From: Microlunatus kandeliicorticis
Lineage (GTDB): Bacteria > Actinomycetota > Actinomycetes > Propionibacteriales > Propionibacteriaceae
DNA: 64,000 nt
Assembly: GCF_014137855.1 (NCBI RefSeq)
Contig: NZ_JACGWT010000007.1
Span: 1 to 64,000 of the forward strand
Direction: 5' to 3'
The translations under genes and the position numbers were made by a program. The notes under the pieces were generated by a model, which worked only from the letters and a program-made list of their open reading frames with translations, searched no databases and had not been told where the DNA came from. Shown here piece after piece: positions 2,511-7,127 of the stretch (position 1 is its first letter; the number at the start of each line of letters is the position of its first letter).

Positions 2511-2825
2511 TCAGCCGGCGGAAGGGCCCGCCGCGCCGTCGGGGTCGAGGGCCAGCCGGACCAGGGCGGCCAGGTCGCCGGTCAGCTGTGTCTCGCCGAC
2601 CGTCGCGGACCGGCCCGGGGCGTCGATCGAGTAGACGAAACGATCCGGGCGTCCGGGCACGCCGCCCGCGAACGCCGTGAGGTCGACCCGCTCGAGCAGC
2701 TCCCGGGCCTGCCGGCCGCGGTCGTCGCCGTCGAGGGCGATCCGACCCGTCCGGCTGACCCCGGCCAGACCACCCGACCGGCGCACCACGAGCTCGTCGG
2801 CCGTCGTCGGTGCATCGTCGGTCAT
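2511..2825 (-). CDS. emfourin-like protease inhibitor family protein
   Basis: A protein of about 104 residues beginning MTDDAPTTADELVVRRSGG. The RSGGLAG segment followed by a compact body resembles emfourin (protealysin inhibitor) domain proteins, which bind thermolysin-like M4 metalloproteases. No M4 protease gene is seen nearby. The ATG at 2825 is chosen over an upstream ATG because AGGAGGACGACG sits directly before it. The family call rests on pattern memory and is moderate. Confidence 0.6.
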   Translation of the reverse strand: MTDDAPTTADELVVRRSGGLAGVSRTGRIALDGDDRGRQARELLERVDLTAFAGGVPGRPDRFVYSIDAPGRSATVGETQLTGDLAALVRLALDPDGAAGPSAG

Positions 2826-3004
2826 CGTCGTCCTCCTGATCCGGAACACCGTCCATCCATGATGCTCCCGGCGCGCGGGTCGGCGCACCGCTGGTCTGTG
2901 GGTCGGCGGAGGCGGAGATGTCCGAACGATGAGACGGACACGCCTCGGGTCGGCGGCTGATTCGGACCCCAGGGAAGAGCGCGAGCGCGGCGGCCCCGGG
3001 CTCT

Positions 3005-3036
3005 TGTCCAGAACCGGACATGTCCAGAAGAGGACC
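3005..3036 (+). promoter_or_regulatory. double operator, site A
   Basis: Two adjacent 16-bp modules of form TGTCC-N6-GGACA occupy 3005-3020 and 3021-3036; the second ends GGACC, one mismatch. The centre reads GGACATGTCC. The arrangement matches site B at 3548. Binding by the TrmB/LuxR-type regulator encoded at 4450-5448 is inferred. Confidence 0.65.
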
Positions 3037-3069
3037 CGGAATCCGGGTCAACGGTGGTCCCGGCACGAC

Positions 3070-3075
3070 TAGGTT
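3070..3075 (+). promoter_or_regulatory. -10 box of promoter A (TAGGTT)
   Basis: TAGGTT fits the actinobacterial TANNNT -10 pattern. It begins 65 nt after the first base of site A, exactly the offset of TAAGTT from site B. The immediate context is also similar (GACTAGGTTG versus GATTAAGTTG). The transcript would start near 3082. Confidence 0.55.
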
Positions 3076-3476
3076 GGTGAACGGCGCCGAGCGATCGGCG
3101 TCCCGCCGGTACACGAACCGGCAGATCGTCGTGGCGAGGTTGTTACGGAGGACGACCGAGCGACACGGGACGACGAGGGGGCATCCTCGTCGTCGGCGTG
3201 ATCGGTCGTCGAACGCTTCTACGCCGGCCCTCGTGACGGATCTGCGGCGAGTTGTGTCGGATGGCCGTCGTCTTCGGGGGAACACCCGCTGAGTTCCCGC
3301 GAGTTCGACGGAGGGGCCACATCGGGACCCGATCCCGAGTAGGATCCCGAACGAAGGCATGCAGCATTGCTGCAGCCGTGAACCTGGCGACTCAGTCGTG
3401 GTCGACGCCGCAGATCGGGCCGTCAGTCGATGAGTGACCATCGAGACGATGGGCACTGATCACATCCCCCCGGGTG

Positions 3477-3510
3477 GCGCCCGCGGTTCTGTTCCCAGGA
3501 CCGCGGGCGC
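3477..3510 (+). terminator. strong hairpin ending the promoter A transcript
   Basis: A 15-bp stem (3477-3491 with 3496-3510, one G-U pair) closes a TTCC loop. No T-tract follows, which is common in this genome type. It lies about 430 nt after promoter A and just before operator B, so it would insulate the two transcription units. Confidence 0.6.
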
Positions 3511-3547
3511 TGCCGGTAGAGGAACAGTAGCACGCCTGGGGCCGGTT

Positions 3548-3579
3548 TGTCCTAAACCGGACATGTCCGGTTTTGGACA
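3548..3579 (+). promoter_or_regulatory. double operator, site B, upstream of the INGV gene
   Basis: A near-perfect 32-bp palindrome made of two adjacent TGTCC-N6-GGACA modules (3548-3563 and 3564-3579), centred on GGACATGTCC. It sits just upstream of where a -35 element would lie for the -10 box at 3613, a position typical of activator sites. The regulator gene converging on this locus is the likely binder (inference). Confidence 0.7.
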
Positions 3580-3612
3580 GTTTGCGGCTGGGTCGCTCGG
3601 GTGCCCGCTGAT

Positions 3613-3618
3613 TAAGTT
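3613..3618 (+). promoter_or_regulatory. -10 box of the INGV gene (TAAGTT)
   Basis: A TANNNT-type box starting 65 nt after the first base of operator site B, with no good -35 element. This suggests activator-dependent transcription starting near 3625, which leaves a leader of about 65 nt before the start codon at 3690. Confidence 0.55.
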
Positions 3619-3689
3619 GTGGCCACGAGCGCCGACTGACCATTTCAACTAGCGGGGTTGAAGGGTCGGCGCCAAGAAGGATGCCCAAA

Positions 3690-4349
3690 ATGTCTCACTT
3701 CGTGAACGCTTCAGCGACCCCTCTGGCCCTCGTCGAGGGGTCTTCCACGCTCGTTTTCCGGAGCGGAAACGATTCCCTCCCCACCGGGTACGCCCTGGAG
3801 GCCATCAACGGTGTCAAGCCGGTGTCGGTGGCCGAGGCGATCAACGGTGTGAAGGCGATCAACGGTGTGAAGCCGGCGCAGATGATCAACGGTGTGAAGG
3901 CGATCAACGGTGTCCGTCCGCAGGTGGCCATCAACGGTGTGAAGGCGATCAACGGGGTGGAGCCCGTCGAGATGATCAACGGCGTCAAGGCGATCAACGG
4001 TGTCCGAGCGCACGTCGCCATCAACGGCGTCAAGTCGATCAACGGTGTGCGGCCGGTCCAGATGATCAACGGGGTCAAGGCGATCAACGGTGTGCGTCCG
4101 CACGTGGCCATCAACGGTGTCAAGGCGATCAACGGTGTGCGTCCGCACGTCGCCATCAACGGTGTGAAGGCGATCAACGGTGTGCGGCCGGTCGAGATGA
4201 TCAACGGTGTCAAGGCGATCAACGGTGTCCGTCCGCACGTGGCCATCAACGGTGTGAAGGCGATCAACGGTGTGCGGCCGGTCCAGATGATCAACGGGGT
4301 CAAGGCGATCAACGGTTTGCGTCCGCTGTCGATGATCAACGGCGTCTGA
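3690..4349 (+). CDS. INGV tandem-repeat protein, unknown function
   Basis: A 219-residue protein unlike any family I recognise. Residues 1-38 (MSHFVNASATPLALVEGSST onward) form a non-repeated head without a signal peptide. From residue 39 the chain is a repeat: INGVKPVSVAEA, then eleven 15-residue units of pattern INGVKAINGVRPxxx, then a final INGV at the C-terminus. That gives 24 tetrapeptides, one of them INGL. The last three residues of each unit mostly alternate between HVA-type and VEM/VQM-type, implying a 30-residue super-unit. There is no Cys, and the repeat body has no Ser apart from one KS unit, one VSV and one LSM. ATG 3690 is preferred to ATG 3681 because AAGAAGG lies 9 nt upstream of it. 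A repetitive RiPP precursor, a beta-solenoid or amyloid-like structural protein, or a multivalent binding protein are all possible. Confidence 0.75.
   Translation: MSHFVNASATPLALVEGSSTLVFRSGNDSLPTGYALEAINGVKPVSVAEAINGVKAINGVKPAQMINGVKAINGVRPQVAINGVKAINGVEPVEMINGVKAINGVRAHVAINGVKSINGVRPVQMINGVKAINGVRPHVAINGVKAINGVRPHVAINGVKAINGVRPVEMINGVKAINGVRPHVAINGVKAINGVRPVQMINGVKAINGLRPLSMINGV
3840..4334 (+). repeat. eleven 45-bp tandem coding repeats
   Basis: Eleven in-frame 45-bp units, each encoding two INGV tetrads. Synonymous variation (GGT/GGC/GGG for Gly, GTG/GTC for Val) shows the units are not freshly copied, yet the amino acids at the INGV positions are almost invariant. This is direct evidence of selection on the peptide sequence. 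Confidence 0.9.
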
Positions 4350-4361
4350 GGTTCGTCGGCG

Positions 4362-4390
4362 AGGCCGCGACCGCCCGCCGGTCGCGGCCT
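4362..4390. terminator. bidirectional terminator hairpin
   Basis: A perfect 12-bp stem (4362-4373 with 4379-4390) and a 5-nt loop between the convergent INGV gene and the regulator gene. It can serve both transcripts. Confidence 0.7.
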
Positions 4391-4449
4391 GTCCCGAGTC
4401 GCTGACGGCGCGAACCACTGACGACGGGTCCGCGCGCCAGGCCCACCCG

Positions 4450-5448
4450 TCAGCGCAGCTCCGGGCCCTCCTGCGGGGCCAGCCGCTGCATGTCCTCGCG
4501 CATCGCCTCGCTCCGGGCCAGCGCAGCCCCCAGCTGCAGCCGGGTCTGCACCTCGAGCTCGTCCATCAGCTCGGCGATCCACCGGCGGACCGAGCGCTCG
4601 GTCACCCCGAGCTGACCGGCGATCGCCACGTCGGTCGCGCCGGTCATCAGCAGGTTGATCAGCGAACCCCGGCGAGGGTCGCGCCGGGGGCCGTCCTGGC
4701 CGGCCACGATCGTCACCGACCGGTCCCAGACCGCCTCGAAGAGCGACTGCAGCGCGTCGACCAGGATCGGGTGCCGGACCAGGGTGGCCCGGATCTCGCG
4801 GTTCACGTAGGAGCTGGGCGCCGGGATCAGCGCGACGGAGTGGTCGACCAGCACCAGTTTCATCGGGACGTCCCCGGTCCGGGCCCGTTCGCCGTGACTG
4901 ATGAACAGGCTCATCTCCTTGAGCCGTTCCGGACCGAACCCCGGGTGGTAGACGCCCCGGAGCTCGACCCCACGGTTGAGCGCCTGGTACTCCGCCGAGT
5001 TCGCCTCGAGCCACTCGCGGGTGGCGGAGCGGGTGGTCACGTAGGGCGGCTTGTCGAAGCCGCAGATCTCCTTCTTCGCCTCTTCGCAGATCCGGTTGAG
5101 CATGCCCTGGACCTCGCTGGGCCCCATCACCGACTGCAGCCCGTCGCCGTTGCCGATCGACCCGAGCAGCCGGGAGTGGAGGGCGTCCGCAGCCTGCAGT
5201 GCCGACTCGAGCTCGGCGTCCCGACGAGCCTTGAGCACCCGGACCGCCTCGGGCAGCGGGATCGCCTGCCACTCGCTGCCCATCCGTGCCGCCAGGCCGA
5301 GCCGCTCCAGCTCCTGGAGGTCGCGCTCCAGCTCCTCGGGGCACCGTCCGGTGCTGCTCAAGGCGTCCAGATCGGCGCCGCGGCGGAAGGCGAACAGGGC
5401 CGTGTAGCAGGCCTCAGCCTCGGGTGACACCCCGAGTGCCTGCAGCAC
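4450..5448 (-). CDS. TrmB/LuxR-type transcriptional regulator
   Basis: A 332-residue regulator with three parts. Residues about 1-80 form a TrmB-like winged helix (LGVSPEAEACYTALFAFRRG). Residues about 100-245 form a phospholipase-D-like effector region (MLNRICEEAKKEICGFDKPP, then MKLVLVDHSVALIPAPSSYV). A C-terminal LuxR/GerE helix-turn-helix follows (LLMTGATDVAIAGQLGVTER). There is no receiver domain, so the signal is probably a ligand or protein. The GTG start at 5448 has a good AGGAGGCGCGAC site. It converges on the INGV gene and is the obvious candidate to bind the two double operators at 3005 and 3548. Confidence 0.8.
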   Translation of the reverse strand: MLQALGVSPEAEACYTALFAFRRGADLDALSSTGRCPEELERDLQELERLGLAARMGSEWQAIPLPEAVRVLKARRDAELESALQAADALHSRLLGSIGNGDGLQSVMGPSEVQGMLNRICEEAKKEICGFDKPPYVTTRSATREWLEANSAEYQALNRGVELRGVYHPGFGPERLKEMSLFISHGERARTGDVPMKLVLVDHSVALIPAPSSYVNREIRATLVRHPILVDALQSLFEAVWDRSVTIVAGQDGPRRDPRRGSLINLLMTGATDVAIAGQLGVTERSVRRWIAELMDELEVQTRLQLGAALARSEAMREDMQRLAPQEGPELR

Positions 5449-5624
5449 GTCGCGCCTCCTGAGCCTCCGCTTGATCCCAGTGTCTCAGATTCCGGCCCGA
5501 ACGGACCCGCGAGCGCGTCGTCGATCTCGCGGGGCGGTCCCCCACGCACCGCCGCGCTGGTGCCGGACGCGATGATGGGCGCCGGGCGGGAGGCCCGACG
5601 AGGACGAGCAGCGAGGAGCGGACG

Positions 5625-7127
5625 ATGGCGGAGCTGGCACAGATCGGGGTCACCGGGCTGGCGGTGATGGGGCGCAACCTGGCCCGCAACTTCGCCCACC
5701 ACGGCTACCGGGTGGCGGTGCACAACCGCACGCAGGCCCGCACCGACTCGCTGCTCGCCGACCACGGCGACGAGGGTGACTTCGTCGGCTCGTCCTCGCT
5801 CGAGGAGTTCGTCCAGTCGCTCGAGCGGCCGCGCCGGATCATCATCATGGTCAAGGCCGGCGCCGGCACCGACGCGGTGATCGAGGAGCTCATCCCGCTG
5901 CTCGAGAGCGGCGACATCGTCATCGACGCGGGCAACGCGCACTTCCCCGACACGGTCCGCCGCGAGAAGCTGCTCGCCGAGCACGATCTGCACTTCGTCG
6001 GCATGGGCGTCTCCGGCGGCGAGGAGGGCGCGCTCAAGGGCCCGTCGATCATGCCCGGCGGCCCGGCCGAGTCCTACGAGTCGCTCGGCCCGATGCTCGA
6101 GGAGATCTCCGCCCACGTCGACGGGGTGCCCTGCTGCACCTACATCGGCCCCGACGGCGCGGGCCACTTCGTCAAGATGGTGCACAACGGCATCGAGTAC
6201 GCCGACATGCAGCTGATCGCCGAGGCCTACGACCTGCTCGGCCGCGGGCTCGGGGCCGACGCCGCCGAGATCGCCGGGATCTTCCGGACCTGGAACGAGG
6301 GCGACCTCGAGTCGTTCCTCATCGAGATCACCGCCGAGGTGCTCGCCCACACCGACGACCGCACCGGCAAGCCCTTCGTCGACATCATCCTCGACCAGGC
6401 CGAGCAGAAGGGCACCGGTCGCTGGACCGTCCAGAACGCGCTCGACCTCGGGGTGCCGATCACCGGGATCGCCGAGGCGACCTTCGCCCGGGCGCTCTCG
6501 GGTTCGGTGCCGCAGCGCGAGGCGGCCCGCGAGGCGCTCCCCGCCGACGCCGAGGAGTGGGTGATCGAGGACCGCGACGCCTTCATCGAAGACGTCCGGC
6601 TCGCCCTCTACGCCTCCAAGGTGGTCGCCTACTCCCAGGGCTTCGACCAGATCGCCGCCGCCAGCCGGGAGAACGACTGGAACATCGACCGCGGCGCGAT
6701 GGCCCGGATCTGGCGCGGCGGCTGCATCATCCGGGCCCGGTTCCTGAACCGGATCACCGAGGCCTACGAGCGCGACCCGGAGCTGCCGCTGCTGCTGGCC
6801 GACCCCTACTTCACCGAGGCGGTGGGCAACGGGCTCGCCGCCTGGCGCCGGATCGTCGCCGGGGCCGCCCGCGCCGGGGTGCCGACCCCGGCGTTCAGCT
6901 CGTCGCTGGCCTACTACGACGGCATCCGGGCCCAGCGGCTGCCCGCGGCGCTGATCCAGGCCCAGCGCGACTTCTTCGGCGCGCACACCTACCGCCGGGT
7001 CGACGACGAGGGTGCCTTCCACGTCGAGTGGAGCCTCGACCGCAGCGAGACCAGCGAGGGTCGGCCGGCCGGGAAGAAGGAGGACACCGGGATGGCGCAG
7101 GCCGAGAAGGCCGGTCCGGCGCAGTGA
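5625..7127 (+). CDS. gnd: 6-phosphogluconate dehydrogenase, decarboxylating
   Basis: A 500-residue enzyme that oxidises 6-phosphogluconate to ribulose 5-phosphate and CO2 with NADP in the pentose phosphate pathway. The Rossmann start IGVTGLAVMGRNLARNFA, the substrate-site GVSGGEEGALKGPSIMPGG and the catalytic FVKMVHNGIEYADMQLI segment are all present. Length matches the long-chain type. The last 30 residues (SEGRPAGKKEDTGMAQAEKA) are a hydrophilic tail. A GGAGCGGACG ribosome site precedes ATG 5625. Gluconokinase follows 10 nt later, so the pair forms a gluconate/pentose phosphate operon. Confidence 0.97.
   Translation: MAELAQIGVTGLAVMGRNLARNFAHHGYRVAVHNRTQARTDSLLADHGDEGDFVGSSSLEEFVQSLERPRRIIIMVKAGAGTDAVIEELIPLLESGDIVIDAGNAHFPDTVRREKLLAEHDLHFVGMGVSGGEEGALKGPSIMPGGPAESYESLGPMLEEISAHVDGVPCCTYIGPDGAGHFVKMVHNGIEYADMQLIAEAYDLLGRGLGADAAEIAGIFRTWNEGDLESFLIEITAEVLAHTDDRTGKPFVDIILDQAEQKGTGRWTVQNALDLGVPITGIAEATFARALSGSVPQREAAREALPADAEEWVIEDRDAFIEDVRLALYASKVVAYSQGFDQIAAASRENDWNIDRGAMARIWRGGCIIRARFLNRITEAYERDPELPLLLADPYFTEAVGNGLAAWRRIVAGAARAGVPTPAFSSSLAYYDGIRAQRLPAALIQAQRDFFGAHTYRRVDDEGAFHVEWSLDRSETSEGRPAGKKEDTGMAQAEKAGPAQ

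Follow-up and report, generated by a model that had tools for sequence, protein, structure and literature searches.

What do two double operators of the same build, standing close together on a contig, control, and which protein reads them? The question is raised by a 64,000-nucleotide stretch of DNA from Microlunatus kandeliicorticis, which we call the window. Site A (3005..3036, + strand) is a double operator of the form TGTCC-N6-GGACA followed by TGTCC-N6-GGACC; its letters are TGTCCAGAACCGGACA-TGTCCAGAAGAGGACC, with 1 mismatch in 20. Site B (3548..3579, + strand) reads TGTCCTAAACCGGACA-TGTCCGGTTTTGGACA, and both of its modules are perfect. It is a near-palindrome of 32 bp, differing from its own reverse complement at 2 letters over that length, and site A differs at 12. 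Each operator is followed by a -10 box that begins 65 nt past the first operator base: TAGGTT at 3070..3075 for promoter A and TAAGTT at 3613..3618 for promoter B (both + strand), in the contexts GACTAGGTTG and GATTAAGTTG, respectively. On re-reading of the sequence, the coordinates and letters reported for the two sites in a first-pass annotation are correct, as is the 65-nt distance that it gives from the start of each operator to TANNNT; the boxes begin at 3070 and 3613. It had also called the two architectures identical; the pair of modules and their spacing are indeed common to both sites, and the word is a little too strong only because of the GGACC that closes module 2 of site A. Separately, TGTCC-N12-GGACA is found at 2919-2940, 64 bp 5' of site A, and is possibly an extra pair of half-sites.

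The rarity of these elements can be judged at several scales. Single modules with 1 mismatch number 4 in the window, and 2.75 are expected; this is not above chance, and so the claim rests on the doublets and on the genome-wide count. In the 4,302,690-base genome, exact TGTCCN6GGACA is present at only 3 places, all of them at A and B (the reversed-pattern control gives 1), and the 32-bp doublet with up to 3 mismatches is present at A and B only. A search of this kind had been proposed as a check in the first-pass annotation, which inferred a small private regulon from two promoters of equal architecture; no unrelated doublets were returned from elsewhere in the genome at up to 3 mismatches, in agreement with that inference. 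Across the genus (Microlunatus, Propionibacteriaceae, as the database defines the name) there are 63 doublet sites, with at least one in each of the 20 genomes; the reversed control gives 3, which implies that about 3 of the 63 may be due to chance. Among 117 genomes drawn from the family, a doublet at up to 2 mismatches is found in 9 of 9 genus members and in 1 of the 108 others.

The spacing was examined in 61 distinct doublets from the fetched loci, each with flanks of 120 bp, giving 122 oriented flanks. The first base of TANNNT is at offset 65 in 25 of them and at offset 66 in 11 (36/122 together), and offsets outside 63-67 have a mean of 0.32; 42 of the 61 sites have the box at offset 62-68 on at least one side. 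TANNNT is rare on the + strand (about 0.00044 per position over the first 9 kb), and thus equal spacing at A and B is very unlikely to arise by chance, as had been argued from the two sites alone; the genus-wide recurrence of the 65-nt spacing agrees. The genes for tandem-repeat precursors, of which the gene behind site B (below) is one, were also tested singly. In the 17 cases tested, the best doublet (0-5 mismatches) begins 139-161 nt upstream of the start codon, and all but the promoter in genome G001 have TANNNT at offset 65-67 (16/17). In genome G015 a doublet with 4 mismatches precedes the precursor ATG by 142 nt, and for G004 the upstream part lies beyond the contig edge. This one-by-one test, together with a protein-family check, strengthens the link between promoter and precursor. 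One criterion for class I activation is a constant distance from the operator to a -10 box downstream, and the peak of TANNNT at 65-66 over the 61 sites satisfies it, the transcription starts themselves being inferred. With a start placed some 12 nt downstream of the box's first base, the inferred operator centre is near -61.5, where class I activators classically bind; hence, the regulator of the doublets is most likely an activator, activation itself being inferred.

What, then, is transcribed from promoter A? An ORF scan found no convincing ORF between A and B. A protein gene was considered for site A and rejected: no ORF has a convincing start, and counterparts were not seen in a nucleotide comparison with relatives. 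For these reasons an RNA is preferred, and we think it probable that site A makes one. The predicted site-A transcript (3082..3515, + strand) is a structured RNA with ends inferred from the -10 box and a terminator-like hairpin, and positions 3082-3520 fold better than 100 of 100 shuffles (z -5.9). It contains UCGGGGGA at 3274 and, further along, a conserved 3' module GAGTGACC...GATCACATCCCCCCGGG (3430..3511, + strand) with the terminator-like hairpin at 3476-3511. This module, including CCCCCC at 3466 as well as the hairpin, is shared with G005, G006 and G011, and an 85% identity to G011 over 174 nt covers both the module and site B.

In G005, G006, G011 and G012, the corresponding doublet is followed by a conserved RNA-like sequence of ~320 nt, here called RNA-A; a further copy in G011 lies at a distance of 1.8 Mb and follows a 3-mismatch doublet of its own. 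The five sequences have a 102-pair structure in which 92% of cells are paired and 27 pairs are changed on both sides (shuffled controls have a mean of 10.9, and slid controls reach at most 6); the structure was predicted on the same alignment that was used for the covariation count. A single-sequence fold of the G006 RNA-A gives z -6.6, and the loops of RNA-A are C-rich, UUCCCCCGGG and GAUGACCCCC. The 5' part of the window's site-A RNA has no detectable homology to the RNA-A of relatives and could not be aligned with it. Rfam has no match in window positions 2850-5600 (E <= 1) or in nine relatives' loci (gathering threshold), and in 18 further loci (E <= 1) the matches were limited to two tRNAs, apart from a single weak one put down to chance.

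The other doublets of the genus suggest a wider family of outputs. There are 43 flanks with a -10 box, and they were read as 13 precursor genes, 6 RNAs of the RNA-A type (including that of site A), 18 CCCCCGA RNAs and 1 G-loop RNA; the remaining 5 were left out of these classes. The CCCCCGA motif was counted near the start in 19 box-bearing flanks, one of which is a precursor leader. AACCCCCGAG is present within 70 nt in 15/43 flanks with a box versus 4/79 without. On their other side, several doublets carry GACGATCGGGGGATC, which the genus has 10 times (control 0); all but one of these places (G013:C144) are no more than 200 bp from a doublet, five of the nine being confirmed by script. By comparison, TCGGGGGA is present in 1/43 flanks with a box versus 12/79 without; since the G-rich flanks mostly lack a box at the 65-nt offset, two-sided promoters are unproven. 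The cores of the C-loops and G-loops are complementary (CCCCCGA/UCGGGGG).

The loop consensus GAACCCCCGAGC is found at 104 places in the genus, versus 6 for the control, some of them inside genes. It also occurs away from doublets, and so the C-loop family is wider than the regulon. By eye, several GAACCCCCGAGC hairpins lie behind palindromes that we take to be CRP-like. One such hairpin is in the window's own genome (G000:C8:31758, locus L184), with similar ones in G005, G012, G009 and G016, and the arrangement is a candidate for a conserved genus RNA outside the doublet regulon. In five genomes (loci L164, L169, L171, L172 and L173), doublets stand by the 3' end of what appears by eye to be an SNF2-type helicase gene, with a possible RNA opposite; this looks by eye like a conserved member of the regulon. 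Complementarity is also seen within precursor loci: in G016, G013, G003, G008 and G018, the precursor leader AACGTCAGG and the loop of a downstream RNA share 9-11 nt of perfect complementarity near the leader start (0-12 of 200 shuffles are as long), and in G010 the match is 7 nt. The remaining 7 of the 13 genomes tested have no match at this position, and the putative pairing of the leader with an RNA-like segment downstream of the precursor gene is only a lead.

Behind promoter B lies the gene for a tandem-repeat peptide precursor (3690..4349, + strand). The product has 219 aa from the ATG at 3690, or 222 aa from that at 3681, and ends ...MINGV*; a Shine-Dalgarno-like AAGAAGG is present at 3674-3680. 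The array itself (3804..4346, + strand) contains 24 INGV/INGL units, mainly alternating INGVKA and INGVRPxxA/M, and the protein matches no Pfam or NCBIfam family at the family's cut-off. When the first 30 nt of the 11 array units at a fixed 45-nt period are compared, 96 of the 116 pairwise differences are at the third position of a codon, 20 at the first and 0 at the second. Because of this concentration on third positions, the repeat frame is very likely translated and under selection. Codon-position counts on units selected by motif are partly circular, and the fixed-period test of the window array is the fair one.

A precursor gene is found at the same place and in the same orientation, convergent with the regulator gene, in 19 of the 20 genus genomes. 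The exception is G009, in which no such precursor was found and the doublet precedes a secreted TAP-like alpha/beta hydrolase. Similarly, in two Auraticoccus-like genomes (loci L066 and L067) a 4-mismatch doublet stands before a nearby secreted alpha/beta hydrolase gene, with TANNNT at offset 66 in one of the two. This hydrolase, TAP-like by Pfam in L066, carries DGQIS-type tandem repeats inside the protein. By eye, 15 of the 19 precursors have a Sec-like signal at the N-terminus; none is recognisable in those of the window, G001 and G015, and the start of the G004 precursor is off the contig. The repeated motif differs among genomes: INGV, LNGA, INGS, VNGL, VNGF, VNGV (two genomes), ANGL, VNSL, VNSI, GNSL, GHTL, GHSL, AHNL, GRGI, GRGV and GRGY (three genomes). 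In 13 of the 19 precursors the C-terminus is exactly a tetrapeptide that is also present upstream; three are single-copy forms of 48 aa ending in GRGY, and three (G005, G006 and G011) do not end on the motif. Repeat periods are 4, 5, 6, 8 and 15 residues, the number of copies reaches 27 (G005), and several precursors are longer than 100 aa. Motif classes are grouped on the regulator tree (6 changes versus a shuffled mean of 11.7; 0/200 shuffles as low), a clustering predicted by co-evolution and by plain descent alike. In the INGS array of G011 (L050) the reading frame shifts midway; phase variation, decay and sequencing error cannot be distinguished.

We infer from this anatomy that the repeat protein could be the precursor of a pheromone sensed by the regulator, a reading for which belief and doubt are about evenly balanced. 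The main counter-evidence is a predicted fold. AlphaFold2 single-sequence models of the window array form a beta-solenoid over residues 55-216, with pLDDT ~90 in much of the best model (the five models scored 75.6, 75.4, 75.4, 53.5 and 39.0). Secreted tandem repeats are typical of matrix proteins, and with the Sec-like signals the model would fit a secreted structural protein (a beta-solenoid, an adhesin or a functional-amyloid-like fibre) to which the RNAs are accessory and in which no peptide is sensed. We regard such a protein as unlikely, though it cannot be set aside. The force of the solenoid model is weakened by the changing periods, which differ by genome, by the single-GRGY proteins of three genomes, whose 48 aa are too short for a solenoid, and by a bias of the method: AlphaFold2 wrongly predicts solenoids for near-perfect repeats, according to PMC11795689. 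Moreover, a structural role is not favoured by the C-termini that stop exactly on the repeated motif, or by the absence of any PDB match to the array model at E <= 0.001.

Alternatively, the repeats might be the cores of an antimicrobial peptide or of a natural product made on the ribosome, and the regulator would then be the switch of that pathway. A leader followed by repeated short cores, a variable core and a dedicated regulator would all suit such a pathway, yet no modification or immunity gene was recognised beside the array in a non-systematic look through the ORF lists, and the flanks at other doublets mostly read as RNAs. The neighbours of the window array are instead 6-phosphogluconate dehydrogenase and an ORF with an emfourin domain, and in G016 and G002 the neighbourhood includes a thermolysin-type (M4) protease that has an emfourin domain at its C-terminus (G015 is similar by eye). 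We therefore give the natural-product explanation little weight. The emfourin ORF of the window (2511-2888, - strand; Pfam 4.5e-9) stands alone, as if this domain were all that had been retained of such a protease in the window. The M4/emfourin protease is a candidate for processing the precursor; no importer or processing protease has been shown to belong to the system.

For the protein that reads the doublets, the best candidate is the product of the gene at 4450..5448 (- strand), a putative activator of 332 aa with a TrmB-like winged helix, a PLD-like alpha/beta sensor domain and a probable LuxR/GerE-like HTH at the C-terminus. An AlphaFold2 model (mean pLDDT 82, pTM 0.57) was searched with Foldseek, in which the best matches were TrmBL2 (E 6e-13) and TrmB (4e-8), with the entries 5bpd, 5bqt and 3qph, followed by PLD folds. 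The TrmB family criterion, an N-terminal winged HTH with a PLD-like effector domain, is thus met by the fold search; TM-scores to TrmBL2 are only 0.33-0.45, the domains probably being shifted, and the sequence match to TrmBL2 is weak (E 0.008). At the C-terminus, Pfam GerE scores 17.7 bits (below its cut-off of 23.5) and HTH_23 scores 24.7 (cut-off 24.6); profile comparison matches GerE 1fse at E 1.1e-5, and the DevR/DosR HTH was also matched. A Pfam search with a limit of E 0.1 gave no TPR repeats. Each of the 20 genus genomes has an orthologue (only a partial match, at a contig end, in G015); identity to the window regulator is 49-58% in the 18 other genus sequences aligned and 42% in the two Auraticoccus-like genomes. 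At the loci scanned for distant regulator paralogues (eight in one 7-10 Mb genus of another family and one in G011), no convincing small secreted ORF was found, and our claim for the layout is therefore restricted to the genus.

The choice of this gene is based on sequence evidence alone, namely the orthologues throughout the genus and the near-absence of doublets from the rest of the family. Could the doublets serve a regulator encoded elsewhere, with 4450-5448 a bystander? There are no binding data, and no doublet precedes the regulator gene (window 5401-5640, up to 7 mismatches). Against this, the gene is convergent with the precursor in 19/20 genomes and present even in the one without it, doublets are nearly confined to the genus within the family, and in the Auraticoccus-like pair a regulator of 42% identity accompanies a diverged doublet before a hydrolase gene. 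A regulator encoded elsewhere is therefore improbable. We are largely confident that the doublets form the dedicated activator system of the 4450-5448 regulator, with binding and activation inferred. Chance as the origin of the doublets is rejected on the strength of the genome-wide and genus-wide counts relative to the reversed-pattern controls, and by the spacing test.

Taken together, the parts can be arranged into a circuit in which a TrmB-fold/LuxR-HTH activator would respond to a peptide pheromone and RNAs would be the output. Its regulatory side has good support and the pheromone is inferred; for the circuit as a whole, we lean slightly towards acceptance. Operators, spacing, conservation, co-occurrence, precursor anatomy and the covariation in relatives' RNAs can be read directly in the genomes. 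In the proposed mechanism, the 4450-5448 regulator would occupy both double operators near -61.5 and recruit RNA polymerase to promoters A and B. Promoter B would yield a precursor with one short peptide motif in tandem, which would be exported and then cleaved by extracellular proteases; both the export in the window's strain and the processing are inferred. The freed peptide, in the window most likely one ending INGV, would return into cells, where the TrmB/PLD-like domain of the regulator is presumed to sense it, closing a positive loop. TrmB-type domains sense small ligands. Site A and the extra doublets of relatives would produce the output, structured RNAs with C-rich loops that may pair with mRNA leaders and G-rich RNA loops. 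These RNA targets, like binding, activation and peptide sensing, are inferences made without binding, transcript or peptide data.

How does this compare with known systems? The TrmB/TrmBL2 sugar-responsive regulators are the best structural matches of the Microlunatus regulator, which differs from them in a probable additional LuxR/GerE-like HTH at the C-terminus and in its targets. The 6C RNAs of Actinobacteria (Rfam) are small hairpin RNAs with C-rich loops, a description that also suits the doublet-driven RNAs; however, these have the loop consensus GAACCCCCGAGC and are under different promoter control, and at E <= 1 the 6C covariance model matches neither the window stretch nor the loci of 18 relatives. 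In the agr system of Staphylococcus aureus, a peptide signal gene and a structured regulatory RNA, RNAIII, are under one activator, and the signal is a cyclic thiolactone. The Microlunatus locus is similar in having what appear to be a peptide gene and a nearby structured RNA under one activator, and differs in its one-component regulator and linear tandem motif; no AgrB/AgrC-like gene was noticed near the regulator in the ORF listings of 10 relatives, viewed without profiles. RNAIII has C-rich loops (PMC2837412), and so do the Microlunatus RNAs.

A parallel in logic may be drawn with the RRNPP(A) systems of Bacillota (Rap-Phr, PlcR-PapR and AimR-AimP), in which a propeptide gene likewise stands beside the regulator gene and the peptide is C-terminal. 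PMC10075063 describes signalling by propeptide and cytosolic receptor for Bacillota and gives as criteria a small secreted propeptide gene adjoining that of a cytosolic regulator of 250-500 aa. An adjacent precursor is found in 19 of 20 genus genomes, a Sec-like signal not being evident in the window, G001 and G015. According to PMC11343458, the canonical mature peptide is at the propeptide C-terminus, and multi-copy propeptides have up to 8 copies, with precedent for tandem pheromone copies in the Phr propeptides of Bacillota. By contrast, the Microlunatus arrays have up to 27 motif copies and the regulon is RNA-rich; the regulator, from Actinomycetota, has no TPR found by Pfam and instead a TrmB/PLD-like sensor with a probable LuxR-like HTH. 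Because the receptor fails the TPR criterion, we do not file the system as an RRNPP member; by analogy it may work like one, the binding of peptide by receptor being inferred.

For Actinobacteria, the signals named in PMC4748050 are typically small molecules, with cyclic or modified peptides also mentioned. Our literature search, which did not extend to bioRxiv or most subscription journals, found no report that describes a system of this kind, either in Microlunatus or for this regulator. The locus has the look of a circuit for peptide signalling between cells that has not been described before, and relatives keep its layout with different peptides. More broadly, and tentatively enough that we stop just short of favouring it, this would be peptide quorum sensing in Actinomycetota with an unrelated receptor fold, pheromone genes in which a hypervariable tetrapeptide is repeated at least two dozen times, and an output consisting largely of complementary C-loop and G-loop RNAs. 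If true, the series from one to more than 20 motif copies lets the growth of a pheromone gene and the changes in its motif be followed directly, the regulon is compact and testable, with one activator over the signal and a family of pairing RNAs, and an actinobacterial genus has evolved Bacillota-type logic with an unrelated receptor.
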